Below, piece by piece: positions 10,890 through 62,909 of a stretch of 64,000 nt of DNA; position 1 is the stretch's first letter; the number at the start of each line of letters is the position of its first letter. The stretch is from an uncultured bacterium (lineage in GTDB: Bacteria; Fidelibacterota; Marinisomatia; Marinisomatales; Marinisomataceae), in NCBI GenBank assembly GCA_943841495.1, contig CALSYL010000003.1, positions 144,915-208,914 on the forward strand, written 5' to 3'. The notes under the pieces are model-generated. The model worked only from the letters and a program-made list of their open reading frames with translations, had not been told where the DNA came from and ran no database searches. A program made the translations under genes and the position numbers.

Positions 10890-12856
10890 TGATCTCCCAA
10901 ATTGGTAGCATAGCAATTAGTTTGGCAGGAGGTTTGATTTTTTCTTCCTTTTTATTTCTTGGTTTATTTAAGATTCTAGATAACAAAAAATATTTATTTG
11001 TAGCTGAGAGAGCAATTTTAGCGACATGTTATAGTATTTTTTTAGCATTTTTTTGTTTATTGAATGAGTTATTGGTTAGCAATTTCAATCTTCAGTATGT
11101 TGCTCAATATACTAGCTATGAAACACCGATGTTTTTTAAAGTTACTGCTTTATGGGCAGGGCAAGCTGGATCATTGTTATTCTGGTCATTTATAACTTCG
11201 CTTTTTACTGTCGTTTATATTTTTACAACATTAAAACGAATGGAGTCACTCAAGTTTCATTCATATCTAATACTTGCATTTATTTTTTCGTTTTTTATAC
11301 TTTTGTCAAATTTTATTGCAAATCCATTTGATCCTGTTTCTTCAGATATTATTGTACAAAATGGAAATGGATTGAATCCATTGTTACAGAATTTTTTTAT
11401 GGCTATACATCCTCCTATTCTTTACATAGGATTTACTGGCTCAGCTATTATATTTGTTATGGCTTTAGCTGCATCAATTTCAAAAGATATTACCTTTGAT
11501 TGGGTACAATCTATAAGGAGATGGTCGCTATTTGTGTGGACATTTCTTTCTGCTGGTATTATTCTTGGAGGATACTGGGCTTATAATGAATTAGGTTGGG
11601 GCGGTTATTGGGCTTGGGATCCAGTAGAGAATTCTTCATTGATGCCTTGGCTTACATTAACAGCTTTTATTCACTCATCAATGATTCAGGAAAAAAGAGG
11701 AATGCTTAAAAAATGGAATTTTTTATTAGCTACTTCAACTTATTTATTGGTAATTCTAGGAACTTTTATTACAAGAAGTGGTGTTATTTCATCTGTACAT
11801 TCTTTCACTGCTGAAAACCTTGGACCTATGTTTTTTAGCTTTCTTTCGTTATTAATTTTTTATACGATATTTTGGTTTTTCAAAAGAAAGTCTTACTTAG
11901 ATACTGATGATAGAATTGATTCTTTCACATCCAGAGAAGGAGGATTTCTTTATAATAATTTAATCCTTATTTTAATGTGCTTTACTATAATGTGGGGTAC
12001 ACTATTTCCCATCTTATCTGAAGCTTGGGACGGTAATAAAATATACGTTGGTGCATCATATTTTAATCAGCTCAATATACCTATTGGTTTGGTTTTATTG
12101 TTTTTAATGGGTATCGGTCCATTGCTTTCATGGAACTATACATCTAATGATATATTACTGCGTAGATTTAAATTGCCTTCAGTTCTAAGTTTTACTTCAG
12201 GTTTTTTCTATTGTTTATTTACAGCATCATTTCAGCTTTATGTTTTTGTAGCTATTATGGGTATAGTATTTACCTTAACTTCTATTCTAGGAGAATTTTT
12301 TAAATCATATAAAAAACAAAAAAATTCTTCTAATATTATTATATCTGTTGCCAAAATGCTGCTTAGTAATAGACATAAAAATGGGGGATATATTGTTCAT
12401 ATAGGTATTGTACTAATATTTATTGGATTTATTGGAAGAGCATTTGAAGTTGAAAAAGAATTTAGTTTATCTCCTGGTGAACAGATCTATTTTGCTAATT
12501 ATACCTTTAAGCTTAATAGTATAAAAAGTGAGGCTAGGGACAATCATTATGCATTTTTAAGCGATATAGATGTTATAGATAAACAGAATCAATTTTTAAC
12601 TAATCTTAAGCCTGAAAAAAGAATTTATTTTTACTGGAATTCTGATCCTGAAAAAAGACAGCCTCATAGTGAACTAGATATTCATAGTACTATTCAAAAA
12701 GATATATATTCAATTTTTTCAGCTTATGATGCTCAGAAAAATCTTGGTTATTTTAAAATAATGATTAATCCATTAGTCAATTGGGTTTGGATTGGTGGTG
12801 TTATGATGGTAATTGGTTCATTATTTGCATTTTGGCCTTCTAGGAGAAAAGTATAA
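10889..12856 (+). CDS. ccmF: Heme lyase CcmF/NrfE family
   Basis: Multi-TM; WAGQAGSLLFW, HPPILYIGF, GGYWAWDPVENSSLMPWL, GTFITRSGVISSVHSF. Confidence 0.95.
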   Translation: MISQIGSIAISLAGGLIFSSFLFLGLFKILDNKKYLFVAERAILATCYSIFLAFFCLLNELLVSNFNLQYVAQYTSYETPMFFKVTALWAGQAGSLLFWSFITSLFTVVYIFTTLKRMESLKFHSYLILAFIFSFFILLSNFIANPFDPVSSDIIVQNGNGLNPLLQNFFMAIHPPILYIGFTGSAIIFVMALAASISKDITFDWVQSIRRWSLFVWTFLSAGIILGGYWAYNELGWGGYWAWDPVENSSLMPWLTLTAFIHSSMIQEKRGMLKKWNFLLATSTYLLVILGTFITRSGVISSVHSFTAENLGPMFFSFLSLLIFYTIFWFFKRKSYLDTDDRIDSFTSREGGFLYNNLILILMCFTIMWGTLFPILSEAWDGNKIYVGASYFNQLNIPIGLVLLFLMGIGPLLSWNYTSNDILLRRFKLPSVLSFTSGFFYCLFTASFQLYVFVAIMGIVFTLTSILGEFFKSYKKQKNSSNIIISVAKMLLSNRHKNGGYIVHIGIVLIFIGFIGRAFEVEKEFSLSPGEQIYFANYTFKLNSIKSEARDNHYAFLSDIDVIDKQNQFLTNLKPEKRIYFYWNSDPEKRQPHSELDIHSTIQKDIYSIFSAYDAQKNLGYFKIMINPLVNWVWIGGVMMVIGSLFAFWPSRRKV

Positions 12857-12857
12857 A

Positions 12858-12947
12858 ATGGAATTATTCAATCAAGTATTTATCTTTTCATTTTTATTTA
12901 TTTTAATCGTTTATGTATTTTGGCCGCTAATAAAAAACATTAAATAA
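12858..12947 (+). CDS. Small single-TM protein (29 aa) between ccmF and ccmA
   Basis: MELFNQVFIFSFLFILIVYVFWPLIKNIK*; starts 1 nt after the ccmF stop and its TAA overlaps the ccmA ATG (TAATG); unannotated in ORF track. Confidence 0.6.
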   Translation: MELFNQVFIFSFLFILIVYVFWPLIKNIK

Positions 12948-13558
12948 TGTTAACAGTTAAGAATCTTAGAAAATCATTTTCAAGCACATGTGTATTAAAT
13001 GATGTTTGTTTTTCTATGGATGTGGGAAAAATTTGTGCAATATCAGGTTCAAATGGTTGCGGTAAAACAACATTTTTAAAATGTATTTCAGGCTTAGTTA
13101 GCTATGACTCAGGATCTGTAGAGTTTAAATCCAATACTAATTTTTTGTTTTTAAGTGACAAGGCTAATATTTTTGGCGATTTAACTATGGAAGAAAATTT
13201 GATTGTTCTTGCTAGGTACCATAATCAAAATATAAATATGAATCAATTTTACGATTCATTAGATAAACTAAATATCAAGGAGCTTAAAAATTTACCACTA
13301 AAATTTTTTTCTCAAGGAAATTTGCAACGCAATAAACTATTAGTTGCTATGAATTTGAATTGGGATTATTTATTTATTGATGAACCGTTTAGTAATTTAG
13401 ATCGCTATGGTATTAAAATATTTAAAGAAATTTTTACCAGTTTAAAATCTAATGGTAAATCAATTATTTTTTCCACCCATCATATTGATGAAAGTAAGTC
13501 TATATGTGATAGTATGATTAGTATTAAAAATGCAACCTTTAAAAGTAATGTTGTCTAA
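12947..13558 (+). CDS. ccmA: Heme exporter ABC ATPase CcmA
   Basis: Walker A SGSNGCGKTTFLKCI; FSQGNLQRNKLLVAMNL signature-like; Walker B YLFIDEPFSNLD. Confidence 0.88.
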   Translation: MLTVKNLRKSFSSTCVLNDVCFSMDVGKICAISGSNGCGKTTFLKCISGLVSYDSGSVEFKSNTNFLFLSDKANIFGDLTMEENLIVLARYHNQNINMNQFYDSLDKLNIKELKNLPLKFFSQGNLQRNKLLVAMNLNWDYLFIDEPFSNLDRYGIKIFKEIFTSLKSNGKSIIFSTHHIDESKSICDSMISIKNATFKSNVV

Positions 13559-14207
13559 GCTGATATATAACGAATTTTATCTCGAAAGAAAATCCTCTTA
13601 CAATGTATTTTATATGTCTTTTTTTGCTATTTCATGTTTAATGTTTTTACTTTTTTCTTTTCCATTATCAAAAATTACCGATATATCAATTTTTAATGGC
13701 TTTCTTTGGATAATTGTTGCTTTATCATCAATAAAGCTTATTGAGAATTCATTTGCTCGAGAACGTGACTTTAGTATACATGACCTCATATATTCATCAT
13801 CTATAGATTCATCATTAATTTTTCTTTCAAAATTAATTTCTTTGAACTTGATACTGACAGTTGTTCAATTGATTATCCTTTTAGTATATATTTTATTTAC
13901 TGGATTAAATATTGATATTGCTTTCAGTTTAATTCCACTGTTTTTACTTACTAATTTTGGTTTAGTTGGATTTGGTATACTGATTTTTTTAATTACAAAT
14001 ACAACAACTTCAAAAAGTTTTTTATTTCCAGTTATTTTTTTTCCAATAATTATTCCGATTCTTATTAATTCTTCAAATATATCTTTAGGTTTAATTGTTC
14101 AAAATAATACATCTTTATATATTGATTCATGGTTGATATTATTAACTTTTGCATTGCTTGGTATTCTTTTAGGAATAAATCTATTTGGGAGACTGATTAA
14201 ACAATAA
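13530..14207 (+). CDS. ccmB: Heme exporter permease CcmB
   Basis: ~220-aa multi-TM protein between ccmA and ccmC; ENSFARERDFSIHDLIYSSSI. Confidence 0.85.
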   Translation: MQPLKVMLSKLIYNEFYLERKSSYNVFYMSFFAISCLMFLLFSFPLSKITDISIFNGFLWIIVALSSIKLIENSFARERDFSIHDLIYSSSIDSSLIFLSKLISLNLILTVVQLIILLVYILFTGLNIDIAFSLIPLFLLTNFGLVGFGILIFLITNTTTSKSFLFPVIFFPIIIPILINSSNISLGLIVQNNTSLYIDSWLILLTFALLGILLGINLFGRLIKQ

Positions 14208-60989: not shown

Positions 60990-61004
60990 GTTTAGGAGGG
61001 GAGT

Positions 61005-61703
61005 ATTTCACATTTATATTTAGTCCGTCACGGACAAGCATCTTTTGGTGAAAAAAATTACGACAATTTGAGCGAAAAAGGCGTTAAGCAGTCTATCTCG
61101 CTAGGAAAAAAACTCAAAAAAAGAAATTTAATTTTTGACAATGTTGTTGTAGGTCCTCTAAAAAGACATATTCAGACTTTTAATGGTATTAATGAAGGAT
61201 ATGGTCAAGATTTAGGAAATCCATTAGTTATTGATGAGTTTTCAGAAAATCAATTGATGGAAATTGCTCAATATTTTATTCCAAAAATGCTAAATACAAA
61301 AAAGAATATTAAGGAGCTAATGAGCGAAATTCCTTTTTGGAAAAGAAAAAAAACATTTTTGAAGTATTTCAACATTATTGCACAACAATGGATTAATGAT
61401 GAACTTAATCTTTCTGATAAAAATTTTGAAAGCTACAAAAGCTTTAAAAATCGTGTAAAAATTGCCAAAGATAAAGTTGCTGAAATAATGAAAGAAGATT
61501 CTAAGACCATGGTTGTGTCTTCAGGAGGAACAATAACAGGAATATATGCTGAATGTCATCCACTTTCAGCAGAAGAAATTATGCAGTTAAATTTTAAAAT
61601 CAAGAATGCTTCTATTTCATTATTTACTAAACAAAATGATACTTTTACATTAAAAACATTTAATCGTAGTTTTATACCTAGATATTTAGAAACATACATT
61701 TAA
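61005..61703 (+). CDS. Histidine phosphatase (phosphoglycerate mutase-like) family protein, probable ATT start
   Basis: Frame reads I/M-SHLYLVRHGQASFGEKNYDNLSEKGVKQ; the catalytic RHG lies upstream of the ORF-track TTG start (61068); AGGAGG at 60994-60999. Confidence 0.85.
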   Translation: MSHLYLVRHGQASFGEKNYDNLSEKGVKQSISLGKKLKKRNLIFDNVVVGPLKRHIQTFNGINEGYGQDLGNPLVIDEFSENQLMEIAQYFIPKMLNTKKNIKELMSEIPFWKRKKTFLKYFNIIAQQWINDELNLSDKNFESYKSFKNRVKIAKDKVAEIMKEDSKTMVVSSGGTITGIYAECHPLSAEEIMQLNFKIKNASISLFTKQNDTFTLKTFNRSFIPRYLETYI

Positions 61704-61712
61704 AGGGGAATC

Positions 61713-62909
61713 ATGGCAATTTCAACAGAAAAATTTGAAGATATTAAATCTAAAATTCAACAATTTATACAGGAAGAAATGATTTCAGATGAAGGTGCTT
61801 TTGATATAAATCATAAGTTTGCTGATCATTTACCTTTCTTAGAAGAAAAAAGAAATAAAGTAAGAAAGATGGGCTTATTTACACCGCAAATACCTAAAAA
61901 TCATGGTGGATTAGGATTAAGCCTTCATCAGCTTGGTCAAATCTATGAAATTTTAGGTCAAACCTTTTATGGGTTATATGTATTTAATTGTCAAGCACCC
62001 GATGCTGGAAACATGGAAATATTGATGGAGCATGGAACTGATTATCAAAAAGAAACATTTTTAAATCCATTAGTTGCTGGAAAAATTAGAAGCTGTTTCT
62101 CAATGACTGAGCCAGATTACGCTGGATCTAACCCTATTATGATGGGTACAACAGCCGTAAAAGATGGATCAAATTATATAATTAATGGTCATAAATGGTT
62201 TACTTCATCAGCTGATGGAGCAGATTTTGCAATTGCAATGGTAATAACCGATCCTGACAACCCAAATCCATATATGAGAGCTTCTCAAATTATTGTTCCA
62301 ACTGATACTAAAGGTTTTAACTTTATAAGAAATATTTCAGTGATGGGCGATGAGGGAGATGGGTGGAACGCTCATGCAGAAATAAAATACGAAAATTGCA
62401 TTGTTCCAGAAAAAAATATTTTAGGTCCCGTGGGGGCAGGTTTTAAAATTGCTCAAGATAGGCTTGGGCCAGGAAGAATTCATCATTGTATGAGATGGAT
62501 TGGTGAATGTGAAAAAGCATTTGAAATGATGTGTGAAAGAGCGGCCTCTAGAGAGTTGTCACCTGGAAAACCTTTAGCTTTAAAGCAAACTGTCCAAAAT
62601 TGGATTGCTGAATCAAGAGCTGAAATCAATGCATCTAGACTGATGGTACTAGATGCAGCAAAGAAGATTGATAATGAAGGCGCTTATGCTGCAAAGGTAG
62701 AAATATCTACAATTAAATTTTATGTAGCCCAAGTGCTTCAAAATGTTCTTGATAGAGCTATCCAGGTACATGGAGCATTAGGCATGACAGACGATACTCC
62801 ATTAGCATCATTATACAGACATGAACGATCTGCTAGAATATATGACGGTGCAGATGAAGTCCATAAAACTAGAGTTGCTAAAGAAATAATGAAAAAGTAC
62901 TTAAAATAA
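61713..62909 (+). CDS. Acyl-CoA dehydrogenase family protein (ACAD10/11-like subgroup)
   Basis: CFSMTEPDYAGSNP, YIINGHKWFTSSADGADFAIAMV, RLGPGRIHHCMRWIGECEKAFEMM, ARIYDGADEVHKTRVAKEIMKKYL. Confidence 0.93.
   Translation: MAISTEKFEDIKSKIQQFIQEEMISDEGAFDINHKFADHLPFLEEKRNKVRKMGLFTPQIPKNHGGLGLSLHQLGQIYEILGQTFYGLYVFNCQAPDAGNMEILMEHGTDYQKETFLNPLVAGKIRSCFSMTEPDYAGSNPIMMGTTAVKDGSNYIINGHKWFTSSADGADFAIAMVITDPDNPNPYMRASQIIVPTDTKGFNFIRNISVMGDEGDGWNAHAEIKYENCIVPEKNILGPVGAGFKIAQDRLGPGRIHHCMRWIGECEKAFEMMCERAASRELSPGKPLALKQTVQNWIAESRAEINASRLMVLDAAKKIDNEGAYAAKVEISTIKFYVAQVLQNVLDRAIQVHGALGMTDDTPLASLYRHERSARIYDGADEVHKTRVAKEIMKKYLK

Follow-up and report, generated by a model that had tools for sequence, protein, structure and literature searches.

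The stretch of DNA analysed here (the window; 64,000 nucleotides) contains a gene for a histidine phosphatase-like protein whose reading frame offers no canonical start codon ahead of the catalytic motif, which raises the question of where its translation begins and why such a start would be kept. All features of the window named below lie on the forward strand.

The start site and its surroundings

The frame is closed upstream by an in-frame TAG (60993-60995, read from the sequence), after which the codons run GAG GGG AGT ATT TCA CAT TTA TAT TTA GTC CGT CAC GGA and reach the catalytic RHG motif at 61026-61034, as located by sequence and alignment. The first-pass annotation had held that no ATG, GTG or TTG lies between this TAG and RHG, and codon-by-codon reading bears this out; the sole codon before RHG that is one base off ATG is the ATT at 61005-61007, identified as an AUU start codon by comparison of orthologues, and it sits 5 nt past a perfect AGGAGG (60994-60999), exactly as had been described. 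The hexamer extends to the Shine-Dalgarno (SD) sequence AGGAGGGG (60994-61001), recognized from its sequence and from the energy with which it pairs with the 16S tail. The first canonical codon in the frame is the TTG at 61068-61070, the start called mechanically in the list of open reading frames, which is internal to the conserved domain, 3' of RHG, in a conserved NYDNLSEKG stretch; the earlier claim that the conserved N-terminus lies in frame upstream of this codon holds, and a start there would drop RHG.

SDs are otherwise weak in the genus, with AGGAG ahead of 3.7% and GGAGG ahead of 1.4% of 295 ATG genes. The 16S tail of the genus is canonical, ending GGATCACCTCCTTTC, with the anti-SD seen in the genus itself. 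Pairing of the window SD with this tail was calculated at -10.7 kcal/mol, whereas 766 ATG genes of the relative G018 have a median of -1.7; the window site thus ranks in the top 1%, and the range for the remaining AUU sites examined is the top 0.1-9%. As these sites rank among the strongest SD duplexes, a weak codon is accompanied by a strong SD, as it is in Staphylococcus aureus (PMC13009471). AGGAGGGG itself occurs a single time in 349 kb searched on both strands. Folding of the site left the SD and AUU largely unpaired and gave nothing unusual (z -0.44), and a search of the start site against Rfam found no element.

From the AUU, the gene (61005-61703) encodes 232 amino acids, assigned by profile match to the histidine phosphatase superfamily, branch 1 (PF00300; 65.1 bits, cut-off 21.7); among the NCBIfam models, no equivalog was matched at its cut-off. 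Families of the PF00300 type carry a second catalytic histidine in an SHGG-type motif. RHG is present in all 21 orthologues described below, and the position of the SHGG-type motif reads SSGG or TSGG in every one of them (SSGG at the C-terminus in the window). Because the second catalytic histidine is thus replaced by serine throughout, phosphatase activity is uncertain, and this member of the family may have an activity that is altered or of another kind.

The upstream gene, placed by its profile among the MaoC-like dehydratases (PF01575; 60534-60989), ends with a TAA 15 nt before the AUU, and downstream follow an acyl-CoA dehydrogenase with an ATG start (61713-62909, profile match) and then an APH-family kinase. 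A kinase together with an acyl-CoA dehydrogenase is reminiscent of 4-hydroxy acid catabolism, where LvaA/LvaC and the fused ACAD10/11 act (PMC12440821), a likeness from which any functional reading would be inferred. A rhodopsin-like membrane protein adjoins the operon just past the end of the window, on the minus strand (L054:9031-9729, identified by eye).

Three start states among the orthologues

Orthologues were collected from one genus of Ca. Neomarinimicrobiota/Marinimicrobia (SAR406, as judged from named relatives), giving a set of 21 that comprises the window and 20 other genomes at 46-90% identity; in the other 221 of the 245 genomes of the phylum that were searched, no homologue was found at E 1e-15. 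When aligned on RHG, the set divides into three states. ATT with an SD is found in 13 members, the window included, in line with the proposal that the codon is a start: in the window and nine close relatives the ATT lies seven codons ahead of RHG, behind an SD of GAGG/AAGGAG type, and the distant species L021, L024 and L025 have it too, with purine-rich SDs. Where the ATT is displaced by one codon, in L025, its SD is displaced along with it. Three orthologues (L018-L020) combine an SD with ATG at that very codon. In the remaining five (L015, L016/L017, L022/L023) the SD is lost and an ATG overlaps the MaoC stop; in L015 (from G012), which is sister to L011, this ATG is in frame, the SD has decayed and a fossil ATT is still readable, and in the other two pairs SD and ATT have likewise been swapped for an overlapping ATG.

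A gene tree computed without the start region, in which support within the large clade is weak, places ATT in both main clades and calls for four changes between ATT and ATG; the 13 ATT species are not phylogenetically independent. In the window and the nine ATT homologues nearest to it, the flanking codons vary on both sides while ATT stays. Among such close relatives, what an ATT does as a codon and what it does as a start are not fully separable; in a control using columns that are isoleucine throughout, the start column was all-ATT in both AUU genes examined (this gene and the malate synthase described below) against 3 of 33 other columns. The association of ATT with an SD, together with the alternative ATG wherever the SD is lost, is the strongest evidence that translation begins at the ATT.

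With these three states, the ATT can be neither a base-calling error nor the trace of a frameshift missed upstream, and readthrough out of the neighbouring gene is excluded as well. An assembly or sequencing error, by which the true codon would be ATG or a lost base would hide an upstream start, was what the first-pass annotation had named as fatal to its proposal, and indel-broken genes do occur in genome G000 and in G019, the genome most closely related to it; however, ATT stands at the homologous place in thirteen separately assembled genomes, and the gaps from MaoC stop to ATT in the ATT species (11, 12, 14, 15 and 16 nt) are such that a shared upstream start could not be recovered by any one indel, which leaves error with hardly any credence. 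The same gaps mean that the frame relation of the two genes varies by species, which speaks against a MaoC-phosphatase fusion produced by stop readthrough or frameshifting, with the ATT as an internal isoleucine codon. The genes are close enough together (15 nt in the window) to suggest such a product, but in the window a second in-frame stop comes next, the TAG at 60993, and an SD ahead of an internal codon would serve no purpose, so that a fusion seems extremely improbable. Translation from the TTG at 61068, which would leave the preceding region with HLYLVRHGQASFGEK untranslated, could appeal to the absence of any earlier canonical start in the frame; against it, the product would be deprived of its catalytic RHG, the 20 codons ahead of the TTG change between species in a mostly synonymous manner, and the TTG itself is replaced by TTA in one of ten close relatives, and we accord it next to no weight.

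On this comparative footing, the AUU can be taken as shown to be the start, kept in the genus and paired with a strong SD directly after the MaoC stop, and we put the probability that it is real at about 0.9.

Further rare starts in the genus

Screens for a conserved N-terminus that lacks a canonical start returned only a handful of genes. The near-complete genome G018 was compared with parts of three relatives, covering 818 open reading frames with a partner after removal of antisense shadow frames; the count is a lower bound, as a gene may escape the screen if a chance canonical codon lies upstream. The matches were infC, as expected, prfB, the phosphatase, malate synthase and lpxA. Of these, prfB (release factor 2) was rejected as a rare start, since it has an apparent standard programmed frameshift, CTTTGAC (G000:C3:168057-169115). 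Other matches were rejected as shadow frames, indel-broken genes of G000 or, in alaS-like and other genes, conserved sequence ahead of an ordinary ATG. Conserved genes broken by indels were also noted in their own right on G000:C3 (e.g., 12690-13794, 135206-135737 and 244195-244522), as in the infC copy of G019 (L042), which is riddled with indels; these are probably assembly errors.

Malate synthase (PF01274; L137-L148; in G018 at C2:180689-182308, minus strand) has an invariant ATT behind an SD, placed where the conserved N-terminus begins, in all 12 genus genomes that have the gene. Its SDs are G-rich, of AGGGG/AGGAG type in most, the codon preceding the ATT varies (ATC, AAC, GTT), and the first canonical codon comes 31-110 codons into the frame, with the exception of one stray upstream TTG in L148. 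The gene lpxA (G018:C2:432442-433224, minus strand), likewise without a canonical start ahead of its conserved N-terminus, was read in three of the 19 genomes that have it: G018 and G007 show GGAG-5nt-ATT, and G012 shows ATA; we regard it as a lead to a further candidate rare-start gene.

The gene for initiation factor 3 (IF3), infC, was found in 17 of 24 genus genomes and encodes a complete factor with both IF3 domains. In nearly all genomes read, its start is GGAGAG-TTTCGA-ATT or a near variant, with a 6-nt spacer (L026-L037, L040, L041); in G003 it is ATC. An in-frame TAG within infC was considered and rejected, being the gene's own terminal stop. The genome from which the window comes, as assembled, gave no match for infC, thrS or rplT, and an assembly gap is the explanation to which this points best. 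As for the initiator, the near-complete G018 showed no unusual tRNA and three CAU tRNAs, although an initiator variant among these would not be distinguished by ARAGORN.

Escherichia coli infC and pcnB, as cited in PMC9410913 and PMC5472188, have AUU starts, and infC of the genus likewise uses AUU; the product of E. coli infC regulates its own gene, and here the phosphatase differs in being no translation factor. As the malate synthase case suggests, conserved AUU starts may be commoner in SAR406 than in E. coli, for which these two are cited.

A possible brake on output

We suggest that the phosphatase is translated from the AUU at 61005 by initiator tRNA-Met, in frame with RHG, either by ribosomes that finish MaoC and re-initiate at AGGAGGGG or by fresh 30S subunits binding there. 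As the match of AUU to the anticodon is weak, only a fraction of ribosomes would start; IF3 would reject many of the AUU complexes, and the strong SD, probably with re-initiation after MaoC, would rescue a fraction, so that less of the protein would be made than of MaoC, acyl-CoA dehydrogenase and kinase, the other products of the operon. IF3 discriminates against non-canonical start codons, and output is therefore predicted to follow IF3 inversely, falling when the factor is in excess and rising when it is short. The expression level, the IF3 dependence and the translational coupling of the phosphatase are what we infer in this scheme from other bacteria. In S. aureus reporters, AUU and AUA starts with an extended SD gave about 10% of AUG output (PMC13009471), and over-produced IF3 lowers re-initiation where an SD is lacking (PMC2268962), which would fit the strong SD seen here. 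That the AUU acts as the start and does so with attenuation of expression is, as a joint claim, very probable; that the AUU start is sensitive to IF3 appears likely, and dedicated IF3 control of the phosphatase, the initiation-fidelity control that the first-pass annotation had raised, is plausible given that infC of the genus encodes a complete IF3 and itself has an AUU start.

In a reading that we find unlikely, the codon is a dedicated IF3-responsive switch: the level of IF3, set by the AUU of infC, would report the state of the translation machinery and co-adjust the phosphatase, malate synthase and perhaps lpxA. That AUU is common to infC, the phosphatase and malate synthase in the genus is what one would expect of such a switch, but eight species use AUG (three at the same codon, five as an overlapping ATG), for which reason the switch is not essential; moreover, the AUU genes are without an obvious common pathway, and the AUU start of cvfC1 in S. 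aureus showed no response to the medium (PMC13009471). Since several species use AUG, some of them through loss of the SD and overlap with the stop, the level of output would matter more than the IF3 signal, and we take the main function of the AUU to be a fixed attenuation of output, with a physiological IF3 signal secondary. The conserved AUU thus looks like a brake on protein output that has been kept, rather than a sequencing error.

Starts of this kind are already known from infC, pcnB, Borrelia pncA, S. aureus cvfC1/ccpN and Streptomyces sigR; what appears to be new is the phosphatase gene, with malate synthase as its companion, the depth to which the start is conserved across a genus, and the natural series that the start types form. 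Our literature search found no paper joining Marinimicrobia with translation initiation and start codons. In S. aureus, the starts of cvfC1 (AUU) and ccpN (AUA) are likewise non-canonical, conserved and preceded by an SD of unusual strength (PMC13009471), although these are a small protein and regulators of a Firmicute, proven by ribosome profiling, whereas the phosphatase is a relative of metabolic enzymes in SAR406, known by comparison, in a genus with weak SDs. A further case is pncA/BBE22 of Borrelia burgdorferi (AUU; PMC13398362), also a metabolic enzyme, for which annotation from a canonical start drops a catalytic residue; it is supported by genetics, biochemistry and a crystal structure, the phosphatase by comparison, yet across many species. 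The weak start of Streptomyces sigR keeps one operon product below its partner (sigR:rsrA), comparable to what we propose here, but the codon is GUC (GTC) rather than AUU and IF3 repression has been demonstrated experimentally (PMC5472188).

Only a handful of bacterial genes with an AUU start are known, and as gene finders that allow ATG, GTG and TTG alone cannot call them, their proteins are truncated in databases; for the phosphatase, truncation at the canonical start would delete the catalytic motif. The series found within this genus, from AUU with an SD through AUG with an SD to an AUG overlapping the upstream stop, makes the cost and the use of a weak start directly testable. A genus-wide set under common IF3-dependent control through AUU and a strong SD, comprising infC, malate synthase, the phosphatase and perhaps lpxA, is a doubtful proposition, but if it were true, the level of IF3 would regulate central metabolism in a streamlined ocean bacterium.
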